NCBI GenBank assembly: GCA_019310865.1 | Contig: JAFDDL010000328.1 | Span: 1-5,077, forward strand | Source: Deltaproteobacteria bacterium | GTDB taxonomy: Bacteria; Desulfobacterota; Desulfobacteria; Desulfobacterales; JAFDDL01 | DNA: 5,077 nucleotides | Direction: 5' to 3' | Part shown: positions 988 through 5,077 of the stretch, piece after piece | Position numbering within the stretch: position 1 is the stretch's first letter | Layout: every line of letters begins with the position of its first letter | Notes under the pieces: generated by a model | Told to the model about the DNA's origin: nothing | The model's input: only the letters and a program-made list of their open reading frames with translations | Databases searched by the model: none | Position numbers and translations under genes: made by a program

Positions 988-1584
988 TTATAAATTCTTC
1001 AGCCCCTTATAGTCGATGGCTTCTGCATAAGCGATCATGTCCTCTTTGTCCAGCTTGCTGCCGTCCAGCTTAACGACATACTTATTGTCCACCACCATGG
1101 TGATCTCACCGCTTCGGTTGTCCGGGTTGTATTTAACGATCGCCTTCTGGCGCTTGATTTTCTGCCATTTCCCACCGCCGGCCGTGGCAAAAGCCGGATT
1201 TGAAAACATGGTCATCATTCCCTGCATCATGGGAGAGGCCGCATCATTAATGTCGATTTTCACCTGTTTGCGCTTGTCGCGGTATACCCGCGAGGCGCCT
1301 ATCATCGAGCCCCCTAAAAACCCGGCACCGGCCTGAGCTGTTCCTTCTTCAGCCTTCCATCCGTCCAGGGGCTTGGGCAAAAAACCTTTAATCAGATCAC
1401 TTCGAAGCTGGTTGATCAGCTGAAGTGCATAGCCTAAACTGTCAACGGATTCGGCGTACTCCTTTTCGGCGTAGGCTTCCAGAGCCTCCTTGATACTATC
1501 GGTTATCTCATCCGCATTTGCCTGTCCCACTGCTGCCAATACAAAGAGAACTACAACTGTCATTTTAAACAATTTGCCCATCAT
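988..1584 (-). CDS. Exported protein of unknown function with signal peptide
   Basis: A complete 198-residue protein that I cannot assign to a named family. Residues 1-24 are a classical Sec signal peptide: Lys4 and Lys7, a hydrophobic core MTVVVLFVLAAVG, and an ANA cleavage site before Asp25. The mature protein is therefore probably periplasmic; there is no lipobox Cys and no further membrane segment. Mature residues 25-68 look like one long amphipathic helix rich in Glu, Ala and Leu. A PLDGWKAEE turn (72-80) follows, then a Gly/Ala-rich stretch ending in GASRVYRD, a Met-rich patch (SPMMQGMMTMFSNP) and a probably beta-rich C-terminal half (KIKRQKAIVKYN, SGEITMVVDNKYVVKL). I have a general memory of similar uncharacterised proteobacterial proteins with a 'GW...ASR.Y' core and a 'SNP' segment, but know no function. 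The start has a strong AAGGAG at 1591-1596; a second ATG follows directly. cutA lies downstream on the same strand. Confidence 0.85.
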   Translation of the reverse strand: MMGKLFKMTVVVLFVLAAVGQANADEITDSIKEALEAYAEKEYAESVDSLGYALQLINQLRSDLIKGFLPKPLDGWKAEEGTAQAGAGFLGGSMIGASRVYRDKRKQVKIDINDAASPMMQGMMTMFSNPAFATAGGGKWQKIKRQKAIVKYNPDNRSGEITMVVDNKYVVKLDGSKLDKEDMIAYAEAIDYKGLKNL

Positions 1585-1653: not shown

Positions 1654-1713
1654 TTTTTACATCGTACCATTCCAGCTTATTTGATATAGTAATACCAATA
1701 AGGGAATTATGCC

Positions 1714-2157
1714 ATGGTCTTTTTACCACCAAATGCCCCCGGGGCCGGTTTTTATTTCCGTGAGCTGAAAACCGATCCGCCCGGCACAGGCATCGGTGAA
1801 CCGGAAACCGCAGACGACGTGTTAGAGGCGCAGACGCCCCAGGAACGTCTTGTGTGCCGGCAATGCGGGCAGATTATCACCAACGCATCCCAACGCATTT
1901 CAGTAGATGGCTCCCACCAGCACACCTTCGCCAATCCCCACGGTATCGTCTATGAAATCGGCTGCTTTCAAGCTATCAGCGGTTGTGGGGTCGCCGGGGC
2001 GCCATCTGAGGATTTCAGTTGGTTTCGCGGCTACCGATGGCGGATAATTCTCTGTATAAACTGCCTGACCCACCTGGGGTGGTCCTTTAACCACACCACG
2101 GGGCATTCGTTTTTCGGTCTCATTCTCGACCGCCTGATCACGTCTTTCGATTCTTGA
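1714..2157 (+). CDS. Stand-alone CULT-domain (cereblon-like) protein
   Basis: A complete 147-residue protein. Residues 46-142 match the CULT domain, the cereblon C-terminal fold that binds thalidomide-type drugs, uracil and cyclic-imide ligands. Seen: zinc pair C48xxC51 and second pair C114xxC117; NPHG at 74-77, identical to the human cereblon NPHG around Asn351; SWFRGYRW at 102-109; HLGWSF at 120-125; FFGLILDRLI at 133-142. The aromatic cage Trp103, Trp109, Trp123 has the same spacing as human Trp380, Trp386, Trp400, and Phe125 matches human Phe402. The best-known bacterial relative is MsCI4 of Magnetospirillum gryphiswaldense (from memory it shares CRQCGQ, GAPS, SWFKGY and FFGLI). There is no Lon-like or DDB1-binding region, so this is not a ubiquitin-ligase part. 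A Pro/Gly-rich 45-residue N-terminal extension has no signal peptide, so it is probably cytoplasmic. The native bacterial role is unknown. Start: ATG with AGGG at 1701-1704, 9-nt spacer; an in-frame TAA at 1699-1701 excludes a longer form. Confidence 0.93.
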   Translation: MVFLPPNAPGAGFYFRELKTDPPGTGIGEPETADDVLEAQTPQERLVCRQCGQIITNASQRISVDGSHQHTFANPHGIVYEIGCFQAISGCGVAGAPSEDFSWFRGYRWRIILCINCLTHLGWSFNHTTGHSFFGLILDRLITSFDS

Positions 2158-3700
2158 ACCGGTCCCATATCTGCTCGGCCGGCTCTACGATTTCCGGAAC
2201 CCGAAAGCCGAATCCCACCCCCAGCAGAATCGAGATAAACAACAGGCCAATAACAGCCGCCGTGGTCAGTGCACCGGCCATTGAGGTCGCATCGATGCCA
2301 AGGGCCGCCACCCACTTGAATACCACAAGAAGAAATCCCATCAGCAAACCGATTCCGGTCATCTTTGCAAAGCATCGGTATACCCCAAGGCTCTCCGTAT
2401 TATGACTACGCCGATTCCAGAGCCCATAAATGAGAATTGCCTGGAAAAGCAAGGAGACGGACATGGCCAGGGCAATACCCCGGGCCCCCCATGAATGCAT
2501 GCCAAAAAAATAGATCGGCAGGGAAAGCACCACCGCAAGGGTTCCGAAAATCGCCGGAAACACGGTATCCTGCATGGCATAAAAGCCCCGGATAATCAGG
2601 GTGTAGGCCGCCATTGCAACCGCCCCGGGAAGCACATAGGCCAGCACCTGGGCCGTCAAGGTCGTGGCAGCTGTATCGAATTGACCCCGCTGGAACAGCA
2701 CCACCACGATTTCTCTGCGAAGCACAATGAGCAATACAACCAGAGGTATGGCCAATGACAGATATCGCAGGGTGTGATTCAAAAGCCGATTGACCTCGGA
2801 AAAATTCTTTTCAGCCATCAGCCGGGATAAGTAGGGGAAAATGGCTGTCCCAACCGCCTGGCCGAAGAGGCCCACCAGCACGAACATGATAACCTTTGCG
2901 TAATTGATGCCGGCAACGCTTCCGGTGGGCAAGAATGAGCCAAAGAATCGGAAAAATATCTCGATGGAAAAGGCAGGGGTCAGCCCCACCATCAGGGGAA
3001 GGGTCAACAGAATATAATGCTTGAAATCCGGATGCGCCCACCCGAAAGCAGGCCTATATTGCATCCCGACACGCCGGGCGCCCACATATTGAAGACAAAA
3101 ATTGCCCAAAAAGGCACCTGCCAGAACCCCCCACGAGAGCCCTTCCATTCCGTAAAGCCGACCCAGGCAAAGTCCGCCGGTAATGATCCCGATATTGTAG
3201 ATTAACGGCGCCAAAGCCGGAATGAAAAACCGCTCTTTTGCGAACTGAACCGCCATGAACAGACCGCCGGCAAAAAAGAAAAACTGCGCCGGCAAAATGA
3301 TCCGGGTCATTTTAACAACCTGCGCCCGGATCGCGGGATCATCAACACCCGGCGCCAGAATCCCCACAAGGGGCTCTGTGTATATCTCCCCCAGCACGAT
3401 TAGAAATAGGGCCACGATCCCGATGCCGGTCAGCACCGTAGAGAAAACATGCCACCCGGCCGCTTCATCTTCATGGGTGATGTATTTGGCAAAAATCGGA
3501 ATAAAGGTGACGGAAAGAAAACCGCCGGCCACAAAATGATTTAAAATTTCCGGTAAGGCAAAGGCGATCTGGTAGGCATCGACACCGCCGCTGACCCCTC
3601 CCACAAAAGCGATGACCATCTCCCGGCAAAGCCCGATAATCCGGCTCAAGAAAACCGAGGACATCATGATCAGCGAGGCAATGCCCACTTTTTTATACAT
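2138..3700 (-). CDS. murJ: MurJ/MviN-family lipid II flippase (divergent)
   Basis: A 520-residue polytopic inner-membrane protein, normal MurJ length, with about 14 hydrophobic segments. MurJ flips lipid II across the inner membrane for peptidoglycan synthesis (MOP superfamily). Family features: SRIIGLCRE (19-27) with Arg20 and Arg26 matching E. coli Arg18 and Arg24; VDAYQIAFALPEIL (40-53) with Asp41 matching Asp39; FLSVTFIPIF (61-70); GQAVGTAIFPYLSRL (280-294); FQRGQFD (336-342); RGFYAMQDTVFPA (371-383). Unusual: the E. coli Arg52 position is Asn54, and the Arg270 position in the YADRL motif is Val270 (YAKVI), by eye alignment. It may be a lineage variant or a paralogue for another lipid-linked substrate. 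The start is uncertain: ATG at 3700 (MYKKVGIASLIMM) fits the family but lacks a close Shine-Dalgarno; an in-frame TTG at 3712 would add four residues. It lies downstream of the MOSC gene, and its last 20 nt overlap the convergent CULT gene. Confidence 0.9.
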   Translation of the reverse strand: MYKKVGIASLIMMSSVFLSRIIGLCREMVIAFVGGVSGGVDAYQIAFALPEILNHFVAGGFLSVTFIPIFAKYITHEDEAAGWHVFSTVLTGIGIVALFLIVLGEIYTEPLVGILAPGVDDPAIRAQVVKMTRIILPAQFFFFAGGLFMAVQFAKERFFIPALAPLIYNIGIITGGLCLGRLYGMEGLSWGVLAGAFLGNFCLQYVGARRVGMQYRPAFGWAHPDFKHYILLTLPLMVGLTPAFSIEIFFRFFGSFLPTGSVAGINYAKVIMFVLVGLFGQAVGTAIFPYLSRLMAEKNFSEVNRLLNHTLRYLSLAIPLVVLLIVLRREIVVVLFQRGQFDTAATTLTAQVLAYVLPGAVAMAAYTLIIRGFYAMQDTVFPAIFGTLAVVLSLPIYFFGMHSWGARGIALAMSVSLLFQAILIYGLWNRRSHNTESLGVYRCFAKMTGIGLLMGFLLVVFKWVAALGIDATSMAGALTTAAVIGLLFISILLGVGFGFRVPEIVEPAEQIWDRFKNRKT

Positions 3701-3717
3701 GGCAGGGGTCAATTGTC

Positions 3718-3765: not shown

Positions 3766-4209
3766 TCACGCCACAGAATCGGCAATCACCTCCACCGCAT
3801 CACCGTTTCGAATCATGCCGCCCTTGATCACCTTGGCAAAAACCCCTTCCCGGGGCATGATGCAATCACCGGCCTGATAGTAAATTGCACATTTGTTTTT
3901 ACACTCCTTGCCGATCTGGGTAATTTCCACCAGGGCTTCATTGCCCAGCCGAACCTGAGTTCCAACTGGGAGTTGAACCCATTCGAGACCGGTGGTTGCA
4001 ATATTTTCCGCAAAGTCGCCAAAGGTGACATCCAGTCCCTGGCTTCGGGCTTTTTCAATACTCTCGGCGGCTAAAAAACTGACCTGTCGATGCCAGTCCC
4101 CGGCGTGGGCGTCACCTTCAAGGCCAAAATTTTCAACTAAATGCGCCATGGAGATACAGGTTTTTCGGGTACCCTTTTTTTTGCTGATGGCAATGCTGTC
4201 TATTTTCAT
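3766..4209 (-). CDS. Stand-alone MOSC-domain protein
   Basis: A 147-residue protein from the ATG at 4209, consisting of a MOSC domain only. MOSC domains (named after molybdenum cofactor sulfurase C-termini) are thought to bind or transfer sulfur or metal-sulfur groups through a conserved Cys; the substrate of this small type is not established. Visible motifs: GLEGDAHAGDWHRQVSFL (29-46), GDFAENIATTGL (64-75), LPVGTQVRLG (80-89) and ITQIGKECKNKCAIYYQAGDC (96-116), with Cys103 of the KEC motif as the likely key thiol and Cys107 and Cys116 nearby, then MPREGVFAKVIKGG (118-131). The frame is open 33 codons further, to a GTG at 4308 inside rsmI, but MKIDSIAISKKKG is where family members I remember begin, and GGGGG (4214-4218) lies 4 nt before this ATG. 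It lies 88 nt after rsmI and upstream of murJ. It has no signal peptide, so is probably cytoplasmic. Confidence 0.88.
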   Translation of the reverse strand: MKIDSIAISKKKGTRKTCISMAHLVENFGLEGDAHAGDWHRQVSFLAAESIEKARSQGLDVTFGDFAENIATTGLEWVQLPVGTQVRLGNEALVEITQIGKECKNKCAIYYQAGDCIMPREGVFAKVIKGGMIRNGDAVEVIADSVA

Positions 4210-4297
4210 GATGCCCCCATTCACGGATTGAATCTTATTTTGGGCTTCAATACGCCATATTGGTGTTGATTCCATTAACATATAGCTGTTTTCGCGT

Positions 4298-5077
4298 TTA
4301 TTCAACACCGTCCTGTCTGTTTGGCTCGATTTGTTTTTTGATTTTCAAGCCTTCCGCATAAACCAGCTGCTTGGAGACGGAAAATTGTTTGGCGATTTCT
4401 TTGCTGATATCCCCCAGGCGCCTGCCACCATCTGAGAGAGATTGCCTGACGGCCTCCCGGATTTGTGCCATTGGCGGCGACGGGGATGCCGTGGATGCGC
4501 CCACAAGCAAGGTGCACTCCCCCTTGATGGCCATCCGGTCGCGCAAGCGGTTTAAAATCTCCGATGCCGAACCACGGATAAACTCCTCATGGGTTTTGGT
4601 CATTTCGCGCGCCAGCACGCAATACCGATCGCCCATCATCTGTTTTATTTCCGACAGCAGCATCTCGATTCGCTTGGGAGACTCATAAAAAACCACGGTT
4701 CGCGACTCATGGGCAAGGGATTGAAGCTGTTTGTTGCGTTTGGCCTTCTTCTTGGGCAGAAAGCCCTCGAACACAAACGCGTCGGTGGCAAGGCCCGCCA
4801 CGCTCAAGGCAGTAATGGCGGCAGAAACACCCGGAACCGGTTTGACCGGAATACAATACGCGATGCATGCCTTGATTAACGTATAACCAGGGTCTGAAAT
4901 CGTCGGTGTTCCGGCATTGGACAGCAGCGCAATGGACACGCCGGACCTGAGCCGGTTTGCCAGATCAGGGGCCCGCTCACTTTCGTTATGCTCATGATAG
5001 CTGATCAGCGACGCACGAATATGATGGTGTGCCAATAATTTCCCCGCATAGCGGGTATCTTCCGCGGCAACCAGATC
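4298..5077 (-). CDS. rsmI: 16S rRNA (cytidine-1402 2'-O)-methyltransferase, 5' end missing
   Basis: The frame is open to the window edge and gives the last 259 residues; about 25-35 N-terminal residues, including the usual ATPIGNL start motif, lie outside. RsmI uses S-adenosylmethionine to 2'-O-methylate C1402 in the decoding centre of 16S rRNA and belongs to the tetrapyrrole-methylase-like fold. Motifs, numbered from the edge: AAEDTRYAGKLL (4-15), SYHEHNE (26-32), LLSNAGTPTISDPG (51-64; the usual SDAGTP reads SNAGTP here), VPGVSAAITALSVAGL (81-96), FEGFLPKKKAKR (103-114), VVFYESPKRI (128-137) and LAREMTKTHEEFIRG (155-169). The C-terminal helical region (216-248, GDISKEIAKQFSVSKQLVY) is the usual RsmI tail. 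It ends with TAA at 4300-4298. An 88-nt spacer (4210-4297) separates it from the MOSC gene; I see no terminator there, so read-through is likely. Confidence 0.96.
   Translation of the reverse strand, partial: DLVAAEDTRYAGKLLAHHHIRASLISYHEHNESERAPDLANRLRSGVSIALLSNAGTPTISDPGYTLIKACIAYCIPVKPVPGVSAAITALSVAGLATDAFVFEGFLPKKKAKRNKQLQSLAHESRTVVFYESPKRIEMLLSEIKQMMGDRYCVLAREMTKTHEEFIRGSASEILNRLRDRMAIKGECTLLVGASTASPSPPMAQIREAVRQSLSDGGRRLGDISKEIAKQFSVSKQLVYAEGLKIKKQIEPNRQDGVE

Follow-up and report, generated by a model that had tools for sequence, protein, structure and literature searches.

A bacterial CULT-domain protein with an intact cereblon-type cage and a constrained N-terminal segment in Desulfobacterota

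The window, by which we mean the whole 5,077-nucleotide stretch of DNA that was analysed, carries at positions 1714 to 2157 of its forward strand a gene for a CULT-domain (cereblon-type) protein of 147 amino acids. The open reading frame is exactly the one proposed by the sequence-only reading, with an ATG start and, 8 nt upstream, a Shine-Dalgarno-like AAGGGA read from the sequence (1700 to 1705, +). At its 3' end it runs into the 3' end of a murJ ORF on the opposite strand (2138 to 3712), and the preceding ORF (988 to 1584) likewise lies on the opposite strand, so the CULT gene stands alone. A weak sigma-70-like match at 1681 to 1710 (+) counts as no evidence, with 2 such matches on both strands against 0.7 expected. 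Elsewhere, the window encodes a MazF/PemK-type toxin (120 to 458, +; Pfam E 1.7e-29), whose start overlaps the tail of a short ORF (1 to 135, +) that is perhaps an antitoxin, and a CutA1 divalent-cation tolerance protein (517 to 849, -). The product of 988 to 1584 (-) has 198 residues and, judged by eye, a signal-peptide-like start; searches of Pfam, NCBIfam and PHROG returned zero matches to it at E <= 0.01. Between murJ and an rRNA methyltransferase gene (TIGR00096) lies a gene for a MOSC-domain protein (3766 to 4308, -); its best NCBIfam match scores under the cut-off and is to the MOSC half of a MoaC-MOSC fusion.

The claim that the 147-residue product is a CULT protein with an intact cage is supported by sequence, profile and predicted fold, which agree. 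In phmmer searches it matches MsCI4 (MGR_0879, from Magnetospirillum gryphiswaldense) at an E-value of about 1e-26 and cereblon chains at 4e-15 to 5e-12, and 711 homologues score at E <= 1e-3; chance resemblance is therefore excluded. The closest among the matches listed are 97%, 81% and 57% identical over 100%, 86% and 82% of the query, and 2 of the 120 proteins among the matches listed bear the name 'cereblon family protein [Desulfobacterales bacterium]'. The structure prediction that had been suggested as a check gave an AlphaFold model whose beta-tent fold matches solved CULT domains (VIA-align); the outcome that would have refuted the proposal, a fold lacking the two-sheet CULT architecture, did not arise. 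In Pfam at E <= 0.01 the protein has solely sub-threshold matches, to Yippee-Mis18 and At4g08330. Neither a LON domain nor a DDB1-binding part was recognised at that threshold, and the N-terminal LON joined to CULT that defines cereblon proper is not found here. Pfam likewise gave no attached DNA-binding, enzymatic or protease domain and, at E <= 0.01, no match to SspB. Six candidates for CULT fused to other domains, in proteins of 227 to 721 aa, yielded none at E <= 1e-3, in a search that is weak because it requires shared 5-residue words. The protein is a new member of a known family.

The zinc cysteines and cage tryptophans are close to constant in an alignment of 117 CULT ORFs, which come from the fetched loci and the window and include two duplicates. 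C48, C51, H70, N74, G77, W103 and W109 are kept in all 117, and P75, C114, C117 and W123 in 116, the remaining row being gapped. Both CxxC pairs noted at the outset are present, C48/C51 (1855 to 1866, +) and C114/C117, and make up the predicted zinc site. The second pair lies within the cage region at 2020 to 2088 (+), together with W103, W109, W123 and F125. Human cereblon reads NPHG at the hairpin tip, as does this protein (N74-P75-H76-G77; 1933 to 1944, +), and Phe125 is the human type of the fourth cage aromatic. Both likenesses hold, but neither is exceptional: they fall at positions that vary within the family, and each is the most frequent state among the bacterial loci examined. Of 114 unique loci, 73 have His as the third residue of NPxG, 15 have Ala and 26 another residue; 81 have Phe as the fourth aromatic and 26 have Tyr, with 7 unparsed. 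The two states occur together in 65 of 115 aligned loci (two duplicates left out); the remaining pairings are His+Tyr (8), Ala+Tyr (8), Ala+Phe (7), other+Phe (15), other+Tyr (11) and one gapped. All 13 MsCI4-like proteins have NPAG.

The three tryptophans show the spacing of 6 and 14 residues that had been likened to the human protein, but this is a family trait and not specially human, since passages of PMC8900816 give the same spacing for MsCI4 (Trp79/85/99) as for human cereblon (Trp380/386/400). These passages also describe the glutarimide as held by the backbone of human His378 and MsCI4 Phe77; the counterpart here is Phe101, as in MsCI4. The Tyr that had been ascribed to MsCI4 is confirmed: Tyr101 sits at the base of its cage, is absent from the human protein and forms a hydrogen bond that raises affinity with the binding mode unchanged (the same passages), and PDB entry 4v32 is titled as a Y101F mutant. 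Two further cysteines, C84 (1963 to 1965) and C91 (1984 to 1986), are kept in 107 and 102 of the 117 ORFs; MsCI4 shares C84 and has Leu in place of C91 in the phmmer alignment. A disulfide or a second metal site formed by this pair is possible.

Ahead of the first zinc cysteine, 169 of 186 parsed proteins have 34 to 62 residues, and the other 17 have longer N-termini that are probably over-called starts (200 proteins were taken, and the 14 left out have a loop that is neither NPHG nor NPAG). The 13 proteins of the MsCI4-like group have 20 to 26 residues there, and three distant loci (L101, L103 and L116) 19 to 29. Two hydrophobic residues followed by Arg form a recurring motif in this segment, mostly from 34 residues before the position of C48; here the motif is Y14-F15-R16, within F13-Y-F-R16-E-L-K19 (1750 to 1770, +). 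R16 is nearly invariant in an alignment of 36 close relatives and not so in an alignment of 95 relatives. The linker that follows (residues 22 to 43; 1777 to 1842, +) has a net charge of -5. In the AlphaFold model residues 1 to 38 are without confident placement, with pLDDT <50 in the motif and through residue 38.

For the motif counts, 249 parsed cores (250 minus L081) were reduced to 94 under 70% core identity and then to 75 with an N-terminus of at least 38 residues and mechanically called starts, the 19 shorter ones left out including the MsCI4-like representatives. At offsets 30 to 37 the motif with Arg occurs in 34 of the 75, against a shuffled mean of 3.0 and maximum of 11, and with Arg or Lys in 42, against a mean of 5.6 and maximum of 14 (1000 shuffles each), an enrichment overstated to an unknown degree because shuffles ignore shared descent. 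It is absent from 33 of the 75, several of which come close to it, for instance with a single hydrophobic residue ahead of the basic position. Pro follows two positions on in 21 of the 75, where the window protein has Leu, and the linker is net negative in 56, with a mean of -3.1. The motif is similarly frequent in proteins with Phe (49 of 83) and with Tyr (12 of 22) as the fourth cage aromatic.

Codon comparisons in 18 disjoint pairs, selected on core identity and on a linker at least 45% identical, gave a dN/dS of 0.75 just ahead of the motif (bootstrap 0.48 to 1.34; 72 codon pairs), 0.31 in the motif (0.17 to 0.46), 0.22 in the linker (0.15 to 0.28), a value lowered because the pairs were picked by linker identity, and 0.13 in the core (0.11 to 0.15). 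The N-terminal segment looks translated and constrained; the motif's value is not clearly different from the linker's, and these figures do not mark the motif as the more constrained of the two. The segment's constraint, coupled with its lack of a confident fold, suggests a second binding partner. The abstract and two sections of Lupas et al. 2015 (PMC4287342) do not mention the motif, nor do the listed titles and abstract openings of the literature on bacterial CULT function, cyclic imides and the ClpX-binding motif; within those parts of the CULT literature surveyed, the element is without a description.

Most of the best 80 of 126 genome loci are labelled Desulfobacterales, Desulfobacteraceae or Deltaproteobacteria; others, such as Thermodesulfovibrio and Thermodesulfobacteriota, appear as single labels. 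Each of 12 genomes has one CULT copy. When the phylum to which one of those 12 belongs was sampled evenly, at least 39 of 395 genomes gave a match, a lower bound set by scoring at most 10 candidates per genome; four of these matches contain one in-frame stop (G292, G063, G197 and G167), and one genome (G196) has a second, partial match. Within one family, 3 of 6 genomes have the gene. The gene is thus retained patchily and mostly as one copy, in agreement with the distribution given in the sections of Lupas et al. consulted (PMC4287342), and its detection in only 39 of 395 genomes implies a role dispensable in most of the phylum. A mobile-element or phage origin is ruled against by zero CULT matches in 50,697 phage records and 72,556 plasmid records, and by the lack of a PHROG match.

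Genomic context was compared across 118 stretches (the best 80 of the 126 loci, 37 further ones and the window), with neighbours defined by mechanical gene calling and BLAST clustering. A CULT ORF is present in 117; none was found in L019, which contains 300 N. By core coding sequence 114 are unique, L109 and L111 duplicating L065 and L023, and L081 failing the motif pattern. The top neighbour family lies within three genes in at least 16 of the 114 unique loci (several contigs end near CULT), and where both neighbours are available (106 loci) a same-strand neighbour lies within 60 nt in 47 and not in 59, by mechanical starts. Gene order is not conserved, so genomic context names no partner and was set aside as a guide to function; judged by eye, no recurring neighbour among the loci points to proteolysis or repair. 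An asparagine-synthase-like gene lies opposite CULT in 13 of 117 loci (L008, L030, L035, L040, L058, L060, L063, L065, identical to L109, L067, L071, L080 and L110; names by eye). Alongside it are amidoligase-like (11 of 117) and glutaredoxin-like (9 of 117) genes, and in 12 of the 13 an EF-G-like gene lies downstream in the same orientation as CULT, again by eye. We read this arrangement as lineage synteny because longer blocks are shared there, and none of these four kinds of gene is a neighbour in the window.

In our reading the product is soluble and consists of a single CULT domain, the three tryptophans of which would cage the ring of a cyclic imide, with a C-terminal aspartimide or glutarimide as the likeliest ligand, and give this reading a probability of about 0.5. 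For MsCI4 and cereblon, it is established that the cage binds imide rings, and MsCI4 has been solved with thalidomide (PDB 4v2y) and deoxyuridine (4v31). By analogy with MsCI4, binding of uracil- or glutarimide-type ligands would follow here. The natural ligand reported for cereblon in human cells is a C-terminal aspartimide or glutarimide, which arises by ageing or through PCMT1 acting on C-terminal Asn (parts of the preprint PMC11974815). With lower confidence, the natural ligand in these bacteria may be the same kind of end on damaged or Pcm/PIMT-processed proteins. The CULT-bearing genomes carry PIMT-family matches, so the same imide-forming chemistry is probably available in them. Co-occurrence itself was discarded as a clue: the PIMT family is present in 395 of 395 genomes, and a PCMT match at E < 1e-50 in about 339 of 356 genomes without a CULT match, so a family this close to universal lends no support to a Pcm-CULT pathway.

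The cage could instead read a free pyrimidine-type metabolite and not a protein end, making the protein a sensor or buffer for uracil, uridine or hydantoin. MsCI4 binds uracil and uridine (sections of PMC4287342), which with the deoxyuridine structure makes either a possible ligand, but the lack of an attached DNA-binding or enzymatic domain in Pfam and of a clear pyrimidine-pathway gene among the recurring neighbour clusters inspected by eye leads us to regard this reading as unlikely. There is one possible exception among those clusters, a 240-aa family near CULT in 13 of the 114 unique loci that looks cytidylate-kinase-like by eye alone.

On the imide reading, a captured protein might be handed over via the constrained N-terminal segment. 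By hypothesis, a peptide that docks on a protease would take the place, in a free-standing protein, of the LON domain to which CULT is fused in mammalian cereblon (parts of PMC4449219). In its full form, the cage would take C-terminal cyclic imides while the hydrophobic-Arg motif docks a AAA+ protease (Clp/Lon), as a tethered proteolytic adaptor. The motif's excess over shuffles, the lower dN/dS of motif and linker than of the codons ahead of them, the lack of confident placement of residues 1 to 38 and the short N-termini of the MsCI4-like proteins are all in keeping with such a scheme. SspB, whose tail docks the ClpX zinc-binding domain as a short peptide (parts of PMC12373786), is rare in the phylum sample, with matches in 5 of 395 genomes, 2 of them above the cut-off; among the 39 CULT genomes only G171 has one, sub-cut-off. 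However, the partner is a candidate only, the motif is missing from 33 of the 75 proteins, the shuffles ignore relatedness, the motif is not set clearly apart from a linker whose dN/dS is lowered by pair choice, and any likeness to the SspB tail is tentative. We therefore hold the adaptor to be distinctly doubtful, and equally speculative the broader proposal that the free-standing CULT proteins of Desulfobacterota amount to a cereblon degron pathway in bacteria, in which C-terminal aspartimides or glutarimides are captured and the complex is docked on Clp or Lon by a conserved N-terminal hydrophobic-hydrophobic-Arg/Lys peptide borne on a disordered linker. That binding shields the imide or aids its hydrolysis, instead of marking the protein for destruction, is very improbable: the labile ring would lie sheltered in the cage and no protease domain is attached, but beyond the structural zinc no catalytic residue was identified, and the same contact acts as a degron in the human protein (parts of PMC11974815).

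The listed titles and abstract openings of the literature named above mention no role for bacterial CULT proteins. The bacterial version cannot act via a cullin-DDB1 ubiquitin ligase and would offer a clean test of whether the reading of cyclic imides is ancestral; if the degron-pathway reading is true, this function of cereblon would predate ubiquitin and not depend on it. For a partner search, the conserved N-terminal segment is a concrete handle. The cage has the chemistry of the human protein in its Phe and in NPHG. The 147-aa protein may also stand in for the human pocket better than MsCI4, which needed Y101F (passages of PMC8900816).

Set beside known systems, the protein differs from MsCI4 in having Phe125 and NPHG in place of Tyr101 and NPAG, 47 residues with a conserved motif in place of 23 before the first zinc cysteine, and an extra C91. 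It resembles human cereblon (CRBN) in the CULT fold, the cage and the lack of a Tyr hydroxyl at the fourth position, and differs from it in that neither the LON domain nor the DDB1-binding part of CRBN was recognised in its 147 aa and in Phe101 at the place of His378 (passages of PMC8900816). With SspB, a ClpXP adaptor, it shares the idea of a ligand-binding domain with a tethered docking peptide and nothing more. With the delta-proteobacterial CULT proteins in the sections of Lupas et al. 2015 consulted, and with the 'cereblon family protein' of Desulfobacterales at NCBI, it forms one and the same group.
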